Shown here one piece after another: positions 1,657 to 14,082 of a stretch of 45,415 bases of DNA. Source of the DNA: Chloroflexota bacterium (GTDB lineage: Bacteria > Chloroflexota > Anaerolineae > Anaerolineales > UBA4823); contig JAUWPO010000003.1 in assembly GCA_030611505.1 (NCBI GenBank), forward strand, positions 1-45,415. Direction: 5' to 3'. The position numbers were made by a program, and so were the translations under genes. Positions within the stretch are counted from its first letter, which is position 1. The number at the start of each line of letters is the position of its first letter. The notes under the pieces are model-generated. The model was not told the DNA's origin, searched no databases, and saw only the letters and a list, made by a program, of their open reading frames with translations.

Positions 1657-3837
1657 ATGACAATTGAAACACTAATCTGGCTAATTCCACTTCCACCTTT
1701 ATTAGCATTTTTTATTATTATCCTGATCACTAACCGGAATAAAGGGCTCAGCCATACGATATCTGTAGGATCTGCAGTCCTATCTTGGATTGGCAGTATG
1801 GTGGTTGTTTGGGCTGCGATCAATTCAGAACACTTAGGATTGCACCCGTTTACTTCATACCTGCCGTGGTTTCCTACAGGTGATAACTGGTTTGTTATTG
1901 GTGTCCAAATTGACCCATTATCTGCGGGGACGCTCTTCTTTGTCGCCTGGACGATTCTGATGATCTTCATATACAGCGTTGGATACCATAATTTCGGTCA
2001 ACCTAATGGTGATCACGACCGGGCAGGTCTTCCACCTGATTGGGCGACGGTGTCCGATGTACATGGGCATTCGCATAAAGTCCCGTCGATAGAGCCCATG
2101 TATTCGCGCTTCTTTGCTTTCATTGGGTTATTTGCTTTTGGAATGTATCTTCTGGTTGTCACGGGAAACTTGTTAATCCTGTTCGTCGGGTGGGAAATAA
2201 TGGGTTTGTGTTCGTACCTATTGATCGGTTTTTGGTATGGAAAGCCTTCTGCTCGTGCAGCAATGATTAAAGCATTTATGACGACCCGGGTTGGCGATGT
2301 GTTTATGCTTTTAGGAATAGCATACCTTTATACAGCCACAGGCACTCTAAATTATCGCGAAATCTTTTACAACGAGGAAGTTCTGCATCAATTAGCGACT
2401 ACAGCCACAGGGATATTTGGGCTTTCTGTGGCGGGATTAATCGGTTTGTTGCTGTTTATTGGTGCAGTTGGCAAATCTGCCCAGTGGCCGTTGCACGTCT
2501 GGCTGCCGGATGCAATGGAAGGACCTACACCAGTTTCAGCAATGATCCATGCTGCTACGATGGTTTCTGCTGGTGTATATATGACAATCCGCATCTTCCC
2601 ATTGCTGTCCGCCGGTGCGGAACATGGTCAATTGACTCCGACGATGACCGTGATTGCGTTCATCGGTACGTTTACAGCCATATTCGCAGCCACAATTGCG
2701 ATCGCTCAAAATGATATCAAGAGAGTGCTGGCTTACTCGACGATATCTCAATTGGGCTTCATGTTTGCAGCGATAGGAATCGGCGCTTACGTTGCCGCAG
2801 CGTTTCACTTGATTATGCATGCCTTTTTCAAAGCGCTGTTATTTCTTGGCTCTGGTTCAGTGATCCACGGCATGGAACATGGTGTTCTGCACACCGGTGA
2901 GCACATTGACTCACAGGATATGTTCAATATGGGCGGTTTGCGAAAAAAAATGCCCATAACTTTCTGGACGTTTTTAATTGGTGGATTAGCACTCGCTGGG
3001 TTCCCCATCCTTACGGCAGGATTTTGGTCTAAGGATGAAATTTTTGCAGACGCGTTTGGGCATAACCATTGGGCCGTTTTTATTACTTTAGCATTTGCGG
3101 CGCTACTTACTGCATATTACACAATGCGCCAGATCACATTGACATTTCTTGGGAAACCGCGCACCCATGCTGCTGAGCATGCTCATGAAAGTAAGTGGAC
3201 GATGACGTTGCCTTTAGTGGTGTTGGCCGTTCTGTCAGTTATTGCTGGCTGGGTGGGTATCCCTGAAGATTTCCCCGCTCTAGGTGGCACAATACCCAAC
3301 TTTATGCATGAATTCGTAGGTGAAACGCTATTAGAGCACCCCGAAATGGTTGTGTTCAGCTACATTCCTTTGCTGACATCACTGGTTGTTTCGTTGGGCG
3401 GTCTAACTTTGGGTTGGCTGGTTTATCGTGACATCAAAGTTGGTGCCTTCGATCCAGCGCAGAAAGCGCTTGGACCCTTGTATACGGTGTTGAAGAAGGG
3501 ATATTACTTTGATGAGTTGTACGATTTCTTGTTTGTGCGACCATCTTATTGGTTGGCTAGAAATTTCGCCTATTTGTGGATGGATCACAAGGTGATCGAT
3601 GGCATCATCAATGGGGTTGGTCATATTGCGGGTCTCATAGGAGATTTTCTCCGAAACTTTATAGACAAACCGATAATCAATGGTTTCGGTGATTGGGTTG
3701 GTGAAACGACCAAGAAATTGGGTTTTCTATTCCGCTCCATCCAGACCGGTCGTGTACAACAGTACATGATAATAGCACTGGTAAGCATGATGGCGTTTAG
3801 CGCAATTTTTTATTATCTGCTCGTTTTCACTCGTTAG
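1657..3837 (+). CDS. nuoL: NADH-quinone oxidoreductase subunit L, with a long C-terminal lateral-helix region
   Basis: 726 aa; motifs GWEIMGLCSYLLIGFW, GKSAQWPLHVWLPDAMEGPTPVSAMIHAATMVSAGVYM; C-terminal amphipathic stretch of about 65 aa between FVRP and QTGRVQQY. Confidence 0.95.
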   Translation: MTIETLIWLIPLPPLLAFFIIILITNRNKGLSHTISVGSAVLSWIGSMVVVWAAINSEHLGLHPFTSYLPWFPTGDNWFVIGVQIDPLSAGTLFFVAWTILMIFIYSVGYHNFGQPNGDHDRAGLPPDWATVSDVHGHSHKVPSIEPMYSRFFAFIGLFAFGMYLLVVTGNLLILFVGWEIMGLCSYLLIGFWYGKPSARAAMIKAFMTTRVGDVFMLLGIAYLYTATGTLNYREIFYNEEVLHQLATTATGIFGLSVAGLIGLLLFIGAVGKSAQWPLHVWLPDAMEGPTPVSAMIHAATMVSAGVYMTIRIFPLLSAGAEHGQLTPTMTVIAFIGTFTAIFAATIAIAQNDIKRVLAYSTISQLGFMFAAIGIGAYVAAAFHLIMHAFFKALLFLGSGSVIHGMEHGVLHTGEHIDSQDMFNMGGLRKKMPITFWTFLIGGLALAGFPILTAGFWSKDEIFADAFGHNHWAVFITLAFAALLTAYYTMRQITLTFLGKPRTHAAEHAHESKWTMTLPLVVLAVLSVIAGWVGIPEDFPALGGTIPNFMHEFVGETLLEHPEMVVFSYIPLLTSLVVSLGGLTLGWLVYRDIKVGAFDPAQKALGPLYTVLKKGYYFDELYDFLFVRPSYWLARNFAYLWMDHKVIDGIINGVGHIAGLIGDFLRNFIDKPIINGFGDWVGETTKKLGFLFRSIQTGRVQQYMIIALVSMMAFSAIFYYLLVFTR

Positions 3838-3877: not shown

Positions 3878-5425
3878 ATGGATTTCATCCTAAATCACTT
3901 GCTAACGCTCATTTTGTTTTTTCCTGTATTGGCAGCATTAATTCTTTTTATACTGCCAAGCGAGCTCAAAATTCTCCAACGTTGGACGGCGTTTGTATTA
4001 TCCATTATCCCCCTGATCCTTTCGTTGGTACTGTGGTTTAACTTCAAGTCAGGGGAACCAGGATTCCAGTTTCAAGAGATTTATACCTGGTATAGCCCAA
4101 TCAACGCTTCATATCACGTAGGTGTAGATGGTATCTCGCTGATATTGGTATTACTTACTACACTGCTGACTCCATTGGCAATATTAACATCATTTACCAT
4201 CACGGATCGAATCAAAGCATATATGATCCTGTTCTTCTTATTAGAACTGGGTATGTTAGGAGTGTTCATGACTCTTGACTTACTGCTGTTCTTCGTTTTT
4301 TGGGAATTTGGTCTCGTCCCCATGTATTTCCTGATAAACCAGTGGGGCAGCGAAAAAGGAGAGCGCGAAATTTGGGGAGGGAGAAGGATAAAATCGCGAA
4401 CATACGCATCCTACAAATTTATTTTATTCACCATGACCGGCTCGTTGGGTCTTTTATTAGCAATCCAATTGATTGGCGTTACTGCAGGGACGTTTGACCT
4501 GGTTTTACTTACAGAGCGATGGGTATCACTGGATACCTCTTTATTCAATATTCCAGTTCATACGGTAAAAACAATAGCATTCTGGGCATTTGTTATCGCT
4601 TTTGCTGTCAAAGTCCCTGTATGGCCATTCCACACCTGGCTGCCGGATGCGCATACAGAAGCCCCAACCGCTGGCTCTATGATCCTGGCAGGTGTACTGC
4701 TTAAGCTCGGTGCTTACGGCTTCCTCAGATTAGTCTTACCGCTTTACCCCCAGGAATCTAAATACTTCGCAGGTGCTTTAGCTTTTCTTGCAGTGGTGTC
4801 AATCATTCACGGAGCTCTTGCAGCATATGGACAAACCGATTTTAAACGACTGGTAGCGTATTCATCGGTAAACCACATGGGCTTTGTCGTTCTGGGCATT
4901 GCCGCAGCAGCATTTGCAGTGGGTACACAGAATGCCACAATTGCGTTGGAAGGTGTCGTATTACAGATGTTCAATCATGGTCTGTCGGCAGCCGGCATGT
5001 TCTTCCTCGTTGGTGTTATTTACGATCGTACCCATACTCGCGACCTGAGTGAATTTGGTGGTTTTTTCCCCTTAATACCTGTATATGGTGGAATTCTTAT
5101 ATTCACTTCCATGGCATCCTTAGGACTGCCGGGTCTTAATGGTTTTATTTCTGAATTCCTGGTTGTGAGAGGAGCATGGCCCGTATTTACCATTTATACG
5201 GCTCTGGCGATGATTGGTCTGTTCTTTACGGGTGCATATATTCTCAAGGGGATAAAGATGACACTCCACGGCCCTCTCAATACTCGTTGGGTTGGACGTT
5301 TAACCGAAATCAATGGGCGTGAATTGTTAGTGATCATCCCATTGATGATATTAATGTTGTGGATTGGCGTTTGGCCGGCATGGATATTAGGAGTTATCAA
5401 TAAAGCAGTCATGACTTTATATTAA
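3878..5425 (+). CDS. nuoM: NADH-quinone oxidoreductase subunit M (copy 1, canonical)
   Basis: 515 aa; FFVFWEFGLVPMYFLI, FAVKVPVWPFHTWLPDAHTEAPTAGSMILAGVLLKLGAYG. Confidence 0.95.
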   Translation: MDFILNHLLTLILFFPVLAALILFILPSELKILQRWTAFVLSIIPLILSLVLWFNFKSGEPGFQFQEIYTWYSPINASYHVGVDGISLILVLLTTLLTPLAILTSFTITDRIKAYMILFFLLELGMLGVFMTLDLLLFFVFWEFGLVPMYFLINQWGSEKGEREIWGGRRIKSRTYASYKFILFTMTGSLGLLLAIQLIGVTAGTFDLVLLTERWVSLDTSLFNIPVHTVKTIAFWAFVIAFAVKVPVWPFHTWLPDAHTEAPTAGSMILAGVLLKLGAYGFLRLVLPLYPQESKYFAGALAFLAVVSIIHGALAAYGQTDFKRLVAYSSVNHMGFVVLGIAAAAFAVGTQNATIALEGVVLQMFNHGLSAAGMFFLVGVIYDRTHTRDLSEFGGFFPLIPVYGGILIFTSMASLGLPGLNGFISEFLVVRGAWPVFTIYTALAMIGLFFTGAYILKGIKMTLHGPLNTRWVGRLTEINGRELLVIIPLMILMLWIGVWPAWILGVINKAVMTLY

Positions 5426-5470: not shown

Positions 5471-6943
5471 ATGCAATTTCCGATTTTGACCTTTATCGTT
5501 TTTACCCCTATGGCAGCTGGATTGCTGATTCTCTTGATCCCGGGAGAGCGAAAAAGGGAAGTGCGTGTCGCCGCCCTGGCAGCTGGGATAATCGCTCTAG
5601 TCCTGACTGTTTGGTTGTATTTCTCCTACGACGTTGCTGCCGGTGGATATCAGTTTGTTGAAAATTATCCCTGGCTTCCGGCTTTAGGAATATCCTATCA
5701 AGTTGGGGTGGATGGGATGAACACCCCTCTTGTTTTACTGACAGGCGTGGTAATGTTCACGGGTGTGTTGATTTCCTGGAACATCGATGATCGTCCACGA
5801 GAGTTCTTCTTCTTTTTATTTCTACTCGCCACGGGTGTATTTGGTGTTTTTGTTGCCTTAGATTTGTTTATGTTGATTTTTTTCTATGAGATCGCAGTAT
5901 TCCCAATGTACTTGCTGATAGCAATTTGGGGTTGGAAAGTCACTCGTGAATACGCCGCTATGAAGCTGACTCTATATCTCTTTATCGGTTCAGTAATTGC
6001 ATTAATTGGCATACTTGCCATGTATTTCGCCTCCGGGCTAGGCACATTTAATATGCTTGCCCTTGAGGGTGCCGGATTTTCTACAACCTTCCAGAAAATT
6101 TGGTTTCCATTCGTTTTCTTCGGTTTCGCGGTTCTGGGAGGCATCTTCCCTTTCCACAATTGGAGCCCTGACGGGCATGTAGCAGCTCCCACAGCCGTAT
6201 CAATGTTCCATGCAGGTGTGCTGATGAAGTTAGGTGCCTTCGCAGCTTTGCGAGTGGGAATTATGTTAATGCCAGAGGGTGCCAAATTTCACATGCCATG
6301 GATAATATTATTGACCCTCGTGAATGTTGTCTATGGAGCATTCATAGCTTCTGTTCAATCTGATTTCAAGTACGTGATCGGTTTTTCTTCTGTTTCTCAT
6401 ATGGGTCTGGTATTAATGGGTTTTGCAACCCTAAATAGAGATGGATTCTTAGGCGCTGGCGTGCAGATGTTTTCACACGGTGTCATGACAGCACTATTCT
6501 TTGCTGTTGTCGGGTTGGTTTACGACCAAGTTCATACCAGAGAAATACCTTCTTTAGGTGGCTTAAGCAAGGTGATGCCCCTTGTTGCTGTAGCATTTAT
6601 TGTTGGCGGTTTAGTATCGATGGGTATGCCTGGTTTTTCGGGTTTTATTGCGGAGTTTCCCATATTCATGGGCCTTTGGAGAGATAATCCATTGATCGCG
6701 ATCATCGCAGCTATCTCGATCGTAATCACTGCTTCCTATATTTTTCGTATAGTGGGACAGGTTTTCTTCGGCAAAATCCCTGACAAATTCAAAGATCATG
6801 TTCACGATATCAAAGCGTTTGATAAGATCGCCCTCGTTTTTCTTTCAATCATCTTGATCATTGTGGGTATATATCCTTCAATATTGGTTCCCCTTGTCGA
6901 TTCTGGTGTTAATAATGTGCTGCGCCTTCTGGGAGGTGCGTAA
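5471..6943 (+). CDS. nuoM: Second NuoM-like antiporter subunit of complex I (copy 2, divergent)
   Basis: 490 aa; FYEIAVFPMYLLIAIWGW, FAVLGGIFPFHNWSPDGHVAAPTAVSMFHAGVLMKLGAFAALR; tandem with nuoM copy 1 and nuoN. Confidence 0.92.
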   Translation: MQFPILTFIVFTPMAAGLLILLIPGERKREVRVAALAAGIIALVLTVWLYFSYDVAAGGYQFVENYPWLPALGISYQVGVDGMNTPLVLLTGVVMFTGVLISWNIDDRPREFFFFLFLLATGVFGVFVALDLFMLIFFYEIAVFPMYLLIAIWGWKVTREYAAMKLTLYLFIGSVIALIGILAMYFASGLGTFNMLALEGAGFSTTFQKIWFPFVFFGFAVLGGIFPFHNWSPDGHVAAPTAVSMFHAGVLMKLGAFAALRVGIMLMPEGAKFHMPWIILLTLVNVVYGAFIASVQSDFKYVIGFSSVSHMGLVLMGFATLNRDGFLGAGVQMFSHGVMTALFFAVVGLVYDQVHTREIPSLGGLSKVMPLVAVAFIVGGLVSMGMPGFSGFIAEFPIFMGLWRDNPLIAIIAAISIVITASYIFRIVGQVFFGKIPDKFKDHVHDIKAFDKIALVFLSIILIIVGIYPSILVPLVDSGVNNVLRLLGGA

Positions 6944-6945
6944 AT

Positions 6946-8388
6946 ATGATCTTAAACGCCTCAATGTTTCTTCCAATACTGCCTGAGATTCTACTGGTCG
7001 CCTTAGGCGCAGTGGTGCTCATTTTGGATTTGGTCCTTCCCAAAAAGCAGCACAGAAACATTGGCTGGGTAACTGCTGCAGGTATGGGGGTGATCCTACT
7101 ACTCAGCATACCTGCTCGACCTGAAACTGAGCCCAGCCTGGTTTGGGGTGGAATGCTGCGTCATGATTGGTTGGGGTTTTCCTTTACAATGCTTTTCATC
7201 TTTGGCGCTGGCATAACAGCACTTTTTGCGATGGATTTCAAGAAACTGGGGCACAGGGGCGAGTTTTATCTCTTAATGATCGTTTCTACGATCGGTATGG
7301 CTCTAATGGTTTCTGCTGCAGATTTGGTTATGCTCTATCTCGCCATCGAGACGACGGCGATTCCGCTATACATCTTGGCTGGCTTTTTCATCCGGGATGA
7401 TAAGTCGACAGAAGCAGGTTTCAAGTACTTTCTTTTCGGTGCAATGACTTCGGCAATAATGTTATATGGTTTTAGCCTATTATTTGGATTTGCAGGAACA
7501 ACTAATATTTACCAGATCGCTCAAAGTGTGCGGGAGGGTGGCTTGCCTGCTGGTGCTCTAATAGGAAGCATGTTGCTAGTGTTGGTAGGATTTAGCTTTA
7601 AGATTGCTGGAGTGCCATTTCATTTTTGGTCCCCAGATGTGTACGAAGGATCACCGACACCTGTAGCGGGCTTTCTATCAACAGCGTCAAAAGCAGCAGG
7701 GTTCGTGGTACTCTTACGGTTTATGATGGTCGTCTTTCCTGATATTACATTACAGTGGGGAGCAGTGATCACGGCGATGTCCGTAGCGACTATGACATTA
7801 GGCAATTTATTGGCTTTGACGCAAAAGAATATAAAACGTATGCTCGCATATTCATCAATCGCACATGCAGGTTATGCTTTAATCGGTGTGGCGGTGATTT
7901 CACAAGTCGGTGTTAGCAGTATGGTCTATTACTTGATCGTATATCTGGTCACGAACCTGGCTGCTTTCGGTATTGTGGCTTCGTGCGGTAGGATCACCGG
8001 TTCGGATGAGATGACAGCTTATTACGGGATGAGTCGCCGTTCACCCTGGCTGGCGCTTGCTTTGCTAGTTGCCCTACTTTCATTAGCTGGGATGCCGCCC
8101 CTGGGTGGATTTGTTGCCAAGTTTTTTGTGTTCGCAGCCGCAGTGGACGCAAATATGATATGGTTAGCGGTGATCGGTGTGCTAAACGCTATTATCGGTA
8201 TGTACTATTATCTAACGGTGCTCAAATATGTATACCTATACAGATCGGAAGATGAAGAGAAACCCCTGCTAGTAACTCGCCCTCAGAAATTGGCTATTAC
8301 GGTTTTAACAGTCGGGATAATATTGATCGGTACAGTCCTCGTTCCTTGGTTCAATTGGGCTACAACAGCAGCAGCCTCTGTTTTTTGA
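6946..8388 (+). CDS. nuoN: NADH-quinone oxidoreductase subunit N
   Basis: 480 aa; GFSFKIAGVPFHFWSPDVYEGSPTPVAGFLSTASKAAGFVVLLR. Confidence 0.95.
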   Translation: MILNASMFLPILPEILLVALGAVVLILDLVLPKKQHRNIGWVTAAGMGVILLLSIPARPETEPSLVWGGMLRHDWLGFSFTMLFIFGAGITALFAMDFKKLGHRGEFYLLMIVSTIGMALMVSAADLVMLYLAIETTAIPLYILAGFFIRDDKSTEAGFKYFLFGAMTSAIMLYGFSLLFGFAGTTNIYQIAQSVREGGLPAGALIGSMLLVLVGFSFKIAGVPFHFWSPDVYEGSPTPVAGFLSTASKAAGFVVLLRFMMVVFPDITLQWGAVITAMSVATMTLGNLLALTQKNIKRMLAYSSIAHAGYALIGVAVISQVGVSSMVYYLIVYLVTNLAAFGIVASCGRITGSDEMTAYYGMSRRSPWLALALLVALLSLAGMPPLGGFVAKFFVFAAAVDANMIWLAVIGVLNAIIGMYYYLTVLKYVYLYRSEDEEKPLLVTRPQKLAITVLTVGIILIGTVLVPWFNWATTAAASVF

Positions 8389-8444: not shown

Positions 8445-8753
8445 ATGAGTCCAACCAATGAGAGATCCAGCAAAACCCGTGCTACGTATGCTTTGAATCT
8501 CACACTTGCAGCGGTGGTTGGTCAGGTGGGCTGCCTAACTTCTGTGATTGTTTTGGCAGCCCTTTTTGGCGGATTATGGTTGGATAGCCGCTTCAGTACT
8601 AAACCTATGATCACAATAGTATTAATCGGTATCAGCGTTCCAATTACCCTATTCGCAATGATATGGGTAGTGAAAAAAGCTACCTCTCGAATAAAAACAG
8701 ATGGTGAGCAGAATCCACAACCTTCGATGAAGGAGGAGCTCATAAGTGAATAA
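8445..8753 (+). CDS. AtpI/AtpZ-like ATP synthase accessory membrane protein
   Basis: 102 aa with two predicted TM helices (GGLWLDSRFSTKPMITIVLIGISVPITLFAMIWVVKKA), directly upstream of atpB. Confidence 0.75.
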   Translation: MSPTNERSSKTRATYALNLTLAAVVGQVGCLTSVIVLAALFGGLWLDSRFSTKPMITIVLIGISVPITLFAMIWVVKKATSRIKTDGEQNPQPSMKEELISE

Positions 8754-9750
8754 TACCCGCCCCAGAATCCTTGGGATTCCAAATCGTTATCTTACGTTGG
8801 CAATAATAGTATTGGGCATATTTGCCGCTCGTGTTTATGCACCTGTTTTGCCACATATCCAGGTAGCACCTGAACGTTTATCACACCAACCATTATTCAC
8901 ATTACCTGTTATTGGTCCTTTCTATTTGACAAATACCATGACAGCGATGGTCATCGCAGATATTATTCTACTTCTGATTACTTTTGCGGTTTGGAAAGCA
9001 GTGAAAAGCGGCAGTTTAGTACCCCAAGGATTTTCCGGGGCGATAGAAGCCTTTATCGAAGTGTTATACAATATGACCGAATCCACTGCAGGAAAGTGGA
9101 CAAAAAAAATTTTTCCTTATTTTGGCGCGATTACCCTTTTGGTCCTAGTCGTCAACTGGACGGAATTAATTCCAGGTGTGGATACAATCGGGATTTTAGA
9201 GCCTGTGGTAGAGCATGGGAATCCAATCGAACAGGTCACGAGCAATATATACACTTTAATACGACCTGAAGGTGGAACAGATAGCGATCATGCTGCAGGT
9301 TTTACGCTCATAGGTTTTGTGCGAACACTTTCAACCGATTTAAATTTTACAGTTGCACTGGCATTAATTTCAGTGTTCATGACTCAGGTGATCGGTTTTC
9401 AAGCACTCGGACCGGGCTACTTCTCAAAATTTATAAACATTTCTGCTCTTTGGAACGTATTTAATAAACCAATGGGGATTATCGATTTTGCCGTTGGTTT
9501 GCTTGAGATCGTGTCAGAAATTTCAAAAATACTCTCTTTCTCCTTCCGGTTGTTTGGTAATATTTTTGCTGGTACCGTTTTACTTTTTGTAATTGGTACC
9601 TTGGTGCCCGTATTAGCTCCCTCGTTATTTTTGATGTTGGAAATATTTGTTGGTTTGATTCAAGCGTTCGTATTTGGTATGCTCACTATGGTATTTATGT
9701 CTCTGGCAACAAAGGGTCATGGAGATCATGAGGAACAGCACGACCATTAA
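8746..9750 (+). CDS. atpB: F0F1 ATP synthase subunit a
   Basis: 334 aa, GTG start; ISKILSFSFRLFGNIFAGTVLLFVI contains the conserved subunit a Arg. Confidence 0.95.
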   Translation: MNNTRPRILGIPNRYLTLAIIVLGIFAARVYAPVLPHIQVAPERLSHQPLFTLPVIGPFYLTNTMTAMVIADIILLLITFAVWKAVKSGSLVPQGFSGAIEAFIEVLYNMTESTAGKWTKKIFPYFGAITLLVLVVNWTELIPGVDTIGILEPVVEHGNPIEQVTSNIYTLIRPEGGTDSDHAAGFTLIGFVRTLSTDLNFTVALALISVFMTQVIGFQALGPGYFSKFINISALWNVFNKPMGIIDFAVGLLEIVSEISKILSFSFRLFGNIFAGTVLLFVIGTLVPVLAPSLFLMLEIFVGLIQAFVFGMLTMVFMSLATKGHGDHEEQHDH

Positions 9751-9850
9751 TATGGTAAATGATTTCTTGAGATACCCATAAATTTTTAATAGGAATTATC
9801 AATAGTCAGTTATTTACAAAGATTAATAAAAGGAGGTTAATTAGAAGACA

Positions 9851-10078
9851 ATGGATGCAGCAGCAGCAAAACTCATCGGAGCAGGCATAGCCATGCTTGG
9901 CACAATAGGTGCTGGATTAGGAATTGGCATCCTTGTAAGTGGTGCAGTTCAAGGAATTGCTCGCAATCCAGACGCAAGCGGCGATGTACAAACGAATATG
10001 ATTCTAGGGATTGCTTTTGCGGAAGCGGTCGCTATTTATTGTTTGGTTGTCGCACTCTTGATCCTATTCGTTGGTTAA
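9851..10078 (+). CDS. atpE: F0F1 ATP synthase subunit c
   Basis: 75 aa hairpin protein; GAGLGIGILVSGAVQGIARNPDA...GIAFAEAVAIYCLVVALLILF; RBS aaaggagg upstream. Confidence 0.97.
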   Translation: MDAAAAKLIGAGIAMLGTIGAGLGIGILVSGAVQGIARNPDASGDVQTNMILGIAFAEAVAIYCLVVALLILFVG

Positions 10079-10110
10079 CATCGTAAAAACAAAAGAAAAG
10101 GAGGTAGGTT

Positions 10111-10845
10111 TTGGAAGCACTAGGCCTTAACCTGGGATATCTCTTAGTTCAGATCTTAAACTTTGCACTTGTCTTTATTGTCTTGCGTGCCTTTGTGTTC
10201 AAGCCGATAATGGATTTACTTGACAAACGCCGCAAATCCATTGCTCAAGGCTTACAGGATGCCCAAGTAGCAGCGGAAGCGCGCGCTAATGCGGAAAAGG
10301 ATGCGCAGGAGATATTAACAAAGGCACAGGCTGAAGCAAATCAAAATATTCGGGAAGCGACTGAAAGAGCGGAAGTTGTTAGTAAAGAAATCATGGCTCA
10401 AGCTGAATCCGATGCTGCAAAAGCGCGCGAAGCAGCCTTAGCCGATGCCGGTTTGGAACGTGACCGGATGCTGGCAGATGTCCGCGGTCAAGTCGCAGCA
10501 CTTGCTATGGCTGCGACTCATAAACTGATAGGCGATGCTTTGGATGAAAAACGCCAACGTGCCCTCATCGATGAATTCTTCTCAGGTGTCAAGTCCGGAG
10601 AAGTTGTCGTGTTAGAGGATACCGGATTGAGTGGAGCTTCGGCTGAAATTATTAGTGCTCTACCGCTTACCGAAGAAGAAAAAGAAATTGTCAGGCAAGA
10701 CATAACATCAAAAACAGGCAGTCAGACTGTCACATTTCGGGTTGACCCGTCCATACTCGGTGGATTGGTCGTTAAAGTTGGCGATAAAGTCTTAGATGGT
10801 TCCGTGTCTGGACAACTCGAGTCGCTCCAACAAAGTTTATCATAA
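10111..10845 (+). CDS. atpF: F0F1 ATP synthase subunit b fused to a delta C-terminal-like domain
   Basis: 244 aa, TTG start after an AAAGGAGG RBS; N-terminal TM plus b coiled coil (FKPIMDLLDKRRKSI); C-terminal LTEEEKEIVRQDI...VDPSILGGLVVKVGDKVLDGSVSGQLESL resembles the delta subunit C-terminus. Confidence 0.88.
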   Translation: MEALGLNLGYLLVQILNFALVFIVLRAFVFKPIMDLLDKRRKSIAQGLQDAQVAAEARANAEKDAQEILTKAQAEANQNIREATERAEVVSKEIMAQAESDAAKAREAALADAGLERDRMLADVRGQVAALAMAATHKLIGDALDEKRQRALIDEFFSGVKSGEVVVLEDTGLSGASAEIISALPLTEEEKEIVRQDITSKTGSQTVTFRVDPSILGGLVVKVGDKVLDGSVSGQLESLQQSLS

Positions 10846-13188: not shown

Positions 13189-14082
13189 CTATTTTCTTGC
13201 GGGACGGAGAAAGATTATCCAATATATACCTGCGACAAAAATCGCGCCTCCGATAATATTCCCGATTGTTACTGGCAGCAGATTGTCGATAAGAAAAGAT
13301 TCCCAGGAGAGGGATGAATAATCAGCAGGTGTCCTGCCTATCGTGCCCCAAAATTCAGTCGTCCCAAAGTTTTTTATTAGAAGGGCAATTGGGATAAAGT
13401 ACATATTAGCAATACTGTGTTCGAAGCCAGCGGCAACGAATGCTGTGACGGGGAAGATGATGGCTGCGATCTTGTCGATTGTACTGCGAGCGCTGAAAGT
13501 CATCCACACAGCAAGACAAACCAGGGTATTACAAAGGATACCAAGTGCTATCGCTTGGATAAACCCAAGTCCGACTTTTGCCTGTGCAATATTGAGAGCT
13601 GCAGCTCCAACTGCTCCGCCGCCGAACAGGTATTGTTTGCTGATAAACACCAATAACGCTGTTCCAAAAGCACCGACAAAGTTGCCAATATAGACGACCC
13701 CCCAATTTCGCAGCAGGGCAGATGAAGAGACTTTCCCGCTTGCCCAGGCCATTACAATCAGGTTGTTCCCAGTGAACAGTTCAGCGCCTCCAACTACTAC
13801 CAGAATAAGACCCAGGCAGAAAACGAAACCTGCAAGTAGTTTGTTGAACCCAAATGGAAAATCTGTAAATAATGCAGTTGTCCCCTCCATTGTTTTAATG
13901 GGCATATCGCCTGCAATAACAGTTGTGGCAAAAACCGCACCCAGAGCAATAAAGGCACCGGCAAGTATCGCCAGTGCAAACATTGTAAGAAGTGGAGCTT
14001 CGGCTTTCCGTACGCCGATATATTCGGCTCTGGTTGCCATCTCTGACGGCAGTAAAGCATCTATATGCAGTTCAGGACTCAT
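13189..14082 (-). CDS. Formate/nitrite transporter family (FNT/FocA-like) channel
   Basis: 297 aa; AGAFIALGAVF, GGAELFTGNNLIVMAWASGKVS, LGILCNTLVCLAVWM, FEHSIANMYFIPIAL. Confidence 0.92.
   Translation of the reverse strand: MSPELHIDALLPSEMATRAEYIGVRKAEAPLLTMFALAILAGAFIALGAVFATTVIAGDMPIKTMEGTTALFTDFPFGFNKLLAGFVFCLGLILVVVGGAELFTGNNLIVMAWASGKVSSSALLRNWGVVYIGNFVGAFGTALLVFISKQYLFGGGAVGAAALNIAQAKVGLGFIQAIALGILCNTLVCLAVWMTFSARSTIDKIAAIIFPVTAFVAAGFEHSIANMYFIPIALLIKNFGTTEFWGTIGRTPADYSSLSWESFLIDNLLPVTIGNIIGGAIFVAGIYWIIFLRPARK

Follow-up and report, generated by a model that had tools for sequence, protein, structure and literature searches.

In recent work on complex I, the ion pair between a glutamate on TM5 and a lysine on TM7 is treated as a switch of each antiporter module (PMC9271201, PMC11496545). 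The first-pass annotation of the DNA described here regarded this lysine as functionally important in E. coli NuoM, and indeed mutants of the E. coli residue, K234, lose function (PMC3046159). The locus under study encodes two NuoM subunits, and the second of them, NuoM2, has no lysine at this position; the question is whether, and by what means, such a subunit could work as an antiporter-like module. The window, that is the whole stretch of 45,415 nucleotides that was analysed, corresponds to contig C141 of a Chloroflexota (Anaerolineales-like) assembly of 2.32 Mb, 86% complete. It starts inside nuoH and continues with nuoJ, nuoK, nuoL, nuoM1, nuoM2, nuoN and genes for the F0 part of an ATP synthase. 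The genes for the antiporter-like subunits are the following:

1657..3837, + strand: nuoL, 726 aa, distal antiporter-like subunit, with both the TM7 Lys and the TM8 His
3583..3750, + strand: segment of the NuoL lateral helix (HL), from D643 to the QTG motif, 53 residues
3878..5425, + strand: nuoM1, 515 aa, canonical Lys-type NuoM, with the TM7 Lys codon at 4610-4612
5471..6943, + strand: nuoM2, 490 aa, Leu/His-type NuoM
6946..8388, + strand: nuoN, 480 aa, with the TM7 Lys

Two nuoM genes lie between nuoL and nuoN, and the NuoL HL segment has 53 residues instead of the 26-27 found in most one-M complexes, according to a pattern count that errs for some rows and whose outliers, except for L153 (see below), were left uninterpreted; this 27-residue insert is typical of 2M complex I. 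On the basis of gene order and of the longer lateral helix, the locus is identified as a 2M complex I with NuoM2 as its extra M subunit, in agreement with the first reading of the sequence. The nuoLM1M2N arrangement is already known for Chloroflexi (PMC7117926), and the NuoL HL insert of 2M complex I has been described as well (PMC9040806). A search of the PDB for a solved structure of a 2M complex I found none. Chadwick et al. 2018 reportedly deals with 2M complex I. At one locus, L153 (G088:C4:389700-401200), a one-M complex of the Lys type has a NuoL with a lateral helix of 2M length, containing two D..IID/VVD repeats; thus, the HL insert alone is no proof of two M subunits. In the trees L153 is sister to the NuoL and NuoM1 of 2M complexes, and it looks like a secondary loss of NuoM2.

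The same genome contains a second complex I, on contig C30, which is of the one-M type and is accompanied by NuoD and NuoF. In this assembly NuoD was found solely on C30, so that the peripheral arm of the 2M complex is absent from it, at least in part. Directly 3' of nuoN, at 8445-10845, are the F0 genes (AtpI-like, a, c, and b with a delta-like tail); no F1 alpha or beta gene follows them in the window, and the F1-type genes of the genome are located on C31 and C110. Near the respiratory genes, a formate/nitrite transporter-like membrane protein, recognised by eye from its translation, is encoded at 13189-14082 on the - strand.

Comparison of NuoM2 with the TIGR01972 (NDH_I_M) profile gave 455.3 bits, above the curated cut-off of 263.8. 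Its AlphaFold model, built on 22 sequences and poor at residues 231-243, has a pTM of 0.84 and an antiporter-like NuoM fold, the best PDB matches being NuoM/NdhD chains with TM scores of 0.90-0.91. In TM7, NuoM1 reads FAVKVPV, with the Lys codon given above, and NuoM2 reads FAVLGGIFPFHNWSPDGH, with a CTG codon at 6134-6136 that encodes Leu222. The NuoM2 residues relevant for the comparison, in which f3 is a family treated further below, are:

5888..5890, + strand: Glu140, the TM5 Glu of the canonical ion pair, invariant
5906..5908, + strand: Met146, on TM5 at Glu+6, the position of NuoL Ser150; Lys in 28/28 f3 rows
6134..6136, + strand: Leu222, in place of the TM7 Lys (E. coli K234), where the discontinuous TM7 is broken
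6209..6211, + strand: His247, on TM8, at the position of NuoL His254 and MrpA His248; Leu/Val in canonical NuoM
6221..6223, + strand: Leu251, on TM8; Glu in 28/28 f3 rows, which lost His247
6227..6229, + strand: Lys253, the central TM8 lysine, kept
6398..6400, + strand: His310, a bridging histidine, kept
6653..6655, + strand: Glu395, the TM12 Glu (E. coli E407), kept

The difference between the two NuoM copies, already noticed at the first reading, is therefore real, and it extends well beyond this genome. In the alignment, column 222 is occupied by Leu in 110/110 NuoM2 rows and by Lys in all the NuoM1 (105/105), NuoL (64/64) and NuoN (107/107) rows with a residue there, so that the retention of the lysine by NuoL and NuoN is also verified; an enlarged set, where some genomes are counted twice, contains 167 rows with Lys and 178 with Leu. 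A sequencing error at codon 222, which the first-pass annotation had envisaged, and a one-genome oddity or local mutation are both ruled out, since Leu is found in all the NuoM2 orthologs compared. Whether the substitution is general in 2M complexes had been left undecided; the 110 NuoM2 rows indicate that this is the case for those of Chloroflexota. The genome scan returned Chloroflexota only, and no relative was found in the viral contigs searched. In the predicted structure TM7a spans residues 205-220 and is followed by a break at 221-226; Leu222 falls in this break, which is where the ion-pair lysine would be expected. Thus, NuoM2 is a NuoM, yet not a canonical ion-pair NuoM, because the TM7 Lys is replaced by Leu in all 178 rows of its class.

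This class is not restricted to 2M complexes. In records from Bacteroides, Phocaeicola and Prevotella (L159-L161), three closely related entries that alone represent Bacteroidota, complex I has an L-M-N arrangement and its sole NuoM is of the Leu/His type, with Leu at 222 and His at 247. In a sample of 80 genomes from another class of Chloroflexota, probably Dehalococcoidia, at least 34 of the fetched loci are also Leu/His. When this Dehalococcoidia-like set was read with longer flanks, 19 of 20 loci showed the order L-M(Leu)-N, the twentieth ending at the contig end, and the same order was found at L121 and L139; many of those genomes contain, at another site, a further NuoM match that is more distant and, in both cases that were read (L132 and L134), Lys-type.

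Phylogenetic analysis groups the Leu/His NuoM proteins in a single clade (SH-aLRT 99, and 100 after removal of the trait columns and with a mixture model), with f3 nested inside it (SH-aLRT 99); these are quick trees, with SH-aLRT support only and long outgroup branches, and many of their sequences come from metagenome bins. The least number of changes on the tree is two, one from Lys-type to Leu/His and one from Leu/His to f3; as the rows are related, the swap has to be counted as one event with one further change, and not as hundreds. The first-pass annotation had viewed the loss of the lysine as a change in a NuoM duplicate, and this view did not survive: an origin of NuoM2 as a tandem or decayed duplicate of NuoM1 is rejected by the tree, which places NuoM2 in an old, separate NuoM lineage; in Bacteroidota and in the Dehalococcoidia-like class, ordinary one-M complex I draws its only NuoM from the Leu/His clade. 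Within 2M complexes, NuoM1 and NuoL branch with the C30-like one-M lineage, and NuoM2 and NuoN with the lineage holding the Bacteroidota and Dehalococcoidia-like complexes. This pattern, with little resolution of the forks within the N and M2 groupings, suggests that the 2M cassette may be a mosaic, with L and M1 from one complex, M2 and N from another, and a new joint between M1 and M2.

The Leu/His class is further characterized by a histidine on TM8. NuoM2 His247 aligns with the TM8 His that is strictly conserved in NuoL, at a position where canonical NuoM proteins carry Leu or Val. Among the 259 NuoM rows of the first set, Leu or Val occupies position 247 in 141/141 Lys-type rows and His in 115/117 Leu-type rows, the two remaining ones belonging to one single genome and carrying Glu251. 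The enlarged set, with some genomes counted twice, comprises 167 Lys rows, 150 rows with Leu and His, and 28 rows with Leu222, Leu247 and Glu251, and has no row that combines Lys222 with His247. Across these alignments, residues 222 and 247 change together, and His is gained where Lys is lost. In the 259-row set, the Leu/His class gained no titratable residue other than His247, and it lost a basic residue at 301 besides the TM7 Lys. A lysine moved along TM7, or to another conserved site of the class, is ruled out by the same finding, Lys146 being confined to f3. Several other pocket residues differ between Lys-type and Leu/His proteins (T170L, P224G, A235G, S339M, R301Y), indicating that the whole pocket was rebuilt. 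The earlier statement that no lysine is near in that helix is correct for TM7, but it missed the neighbouring TM8, with His247 at the NuoL His254 position. Indeed, another Lys, Arg or His in the same pocket, which had been envisaged, is largely what the alignment points to, in the form of His247 or, in f3, of Lys146; by analogy with the NuoL and MrpA structures, positions 247 and 146 would both be close in space to the old lysine site.

The residues of the putative conduction path are instead kept: K253, the two bridging histidines H310 and H336, and E395 are invariant or nearly so across the rows of the class, and the retention of the TM5 Glu, TM8 Lys and TM12 Glu noted at the first reading is borne out as E140, K253 and E395. 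In the NuoM2 of L119 (G037:C60) His247 is present and the central TM8 Lys has moved by one residue (GVLKATG vs GVLMKLG; column 253 is Ala).

A second natural replacement is found in the f3 family. In 28/28 of its rows position 222 is Leu, His247 is lost and replaced by Leu, Glu251 is gained and Met146 is changed to Lys. Position 146 is six residues after Glu140 on TM5, in the place of E. coli NuoL Ser150, to which NuoL His254 is hydrogen-bonded in one of its two conformations (PMC13358369); the counterpart contact in MrpA is His248-Ser146 (PMC9568556). So, with the TM8 His lost, f3 has acquired a base at the position facing that His in NuoL and an acid one turn along TM8. The presence of Lys146 and Glu251 upon loss of His247 represents the best evidence from comparison for the need of a titratable partner in the pocket.

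NuoM2 can be compared with several known systems. With canonical NuoM/ND4/Nqo13 it has in common the fold, the TM5 Glu, the TM8 Lys, the bridging His residues and the TM12 Glu, while the TM7 Lys is changed to Leu, the TM8 Leu to His, and Thr170, Pro224, Arg301 and others are replaced. With the histidine switch of NuoL/ND5/MrpA (His254/His248) it shares the TM5 Glu and a TM8 His at the aligned position; however, NuoL also keeps the TM7 Lys (Lys229) and has Ser150 as partner of the histidine, whereas NuoM2 has Leu222 and Met146, together with the NuoM-type TM8 Lys and TM12 Glu. Since Ser150 corresponds to Met146, the NuoL mechanism is not copied whole in NuoM2, which is not called a NuoL-type switch and would be only partly alike in its working. 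The TM8 His is regarded as characteristic of the distal subunit (PMC13358369) and is absent from MrpD (PMC9568556). A precedent in the superfamily for a titratable residue moved to a neighbouring helix is formate hydrogenlyase (FHL), where His222 replaces the missing switch His (PMC13358369); in FHL, however, it is the TM8 His that is replaced, in NuoM2 the TM7 Lys. Known 2M complex I (PMC7117926) is alike in the adjacent nuoM pair between nuoL and nuoN, in the long NuoL lateral helix and in the Chloroflexota host, but the missing TM7 Lys, the TM8 His and the kinship of NuoM2 with the one-M NuoM class of Bacteroidota go unmentioned in the 2M complex I papers compared, Chadwick 2018 being outside this comparison. 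A literature search, with most subscription papers outside its scope, turned up neither a description of NuoM proteins that lack the TM7 Lys as a class nor functional data for any Leu/His NuoM, and no priority is claimed.

Altogether, NuoM2 probably functions in 2M complex I as an antiporter-like module. It belongs to an old NuoM class that appears to have exchanged the TM5-Glu/TM7-Lys ion-pair switch for another, and it probably works differently from NuoM1, as proposed at the first reading from the absence of the TM7 Lys. In T. thermophilus NuoM the proton runs through Lys235-His292-Glu377, and the Glu123/Lys204 pair, about 14 A off this path, controls the barrier electrostatically (PMC11496545). 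In NuoM2, the TM7 Lys would have become Leu with the titratable base His247 on TM8 in exchange, and the proton path would be kept, with uptake to Lys253 on TM8 and a lateral step via the bridging His310 to Glu395 on TM12. A change at the neighbouring subunit would alter the charge of the Glu140/His247 pair, which would set the field that lets the proton of Lys253 pass to Glu395; histidine, softer than lysine, could reorient and change its protonation, as proposed for NuoL His254. The simplest replacement of the lysine would be this Glu140/His247 pair, with Glu/Lys146 as the alternative in f3. We infer proton pumping, its stoichiometry and the order of the subunits, with NuoM2 beside NuoN.

Other readings were weighed against this one. 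The lysine needed in E. coli is absent (PMC3046159) and the added NuoM2 is wedged, in gene order, between two ordinary subunits, as would suit a passive spacer or lateral relay that lengthens the arm and passes a conformational or electrostatic signal between NuoN and NuoM1 without a proton of its own, the 2M complex still pumping four. This role, suggested in the first-pass annotation, is hard to keep and is judged unlikely, because the same class serves as the only NuoM of one-M complexes in Bacteroidota and in the Dehalococcoidia-like class, which a pure spacer would leave one pump short; moreover, the TM8 Lys, both bridging His and the TM12 Glu are kept, and NuoM2 evolves no faster than NuoM1, being slightly more conserved (mean identity to the copies in the window 69.8% vs 67.8%, with NuoM2 ahead in 67/99 loci, p = 1e-4).

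The TM7 Lys might also be dispensable here, with Glu140 alone, protonated or deprotonated, acting as the switch and His247 having a structural role or serving proton uptake, with no replacement at all. The invariance of the TM5 Glu where the TM7 Lys varies and the further pocket differences would agree with this view, but the strict Lys-to-His coupling and the Lys146 and Glu251 of f3 look like the substitution of one function, and we regard it as improbable. Far less credible is a leaky or differently selective module, whose channel, without the ion pair, would rest more open and let H+ (or Na+) through, either passively or in an antiport step: when the pair is broken by E123Q, isolated T. thermophilus NuoM does show increased proton conduction (PMC11496545), yet a leak has an energy cost and would hardly have persisted across so many lineages, and no cation-site residue has been gained, His247 being the sole class-specific titratable gain.

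The replaced switch thus remains the preferred explanation for NuoM2. For complex I as a whole, the balance tips slightly towards a widespread class of modules devoid of the Glu/Lys ion pair, which would use a Glu/His switch or, in one family, Glu140 with TM5 Lys146 and TM8 Glu251; 2M complex I would then be a mosaic in which a Lys-switched and a His-switched NuoM are arranged in series. In current models proton transfer in every antiporter-like subunit is driven by the opening of its TM5-Glu/TM7-Lys pair. The class described here is natural and long-lived and lacks the lysine of this pair, and it provides the sole NuoM in culturable Bacteroides and Prevotella and is found beside a Lys-type NuoM in Chloroflexota; it amounts to an experiment of nature in which the lysine switch has been taken away. 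With this class, direct tests become feasible of the need for the ion pair and of the possible pumping of a fifth proton by the fourth module of 2M complex I, and the three natural arrangements of charged residues represent ready-made constructs.
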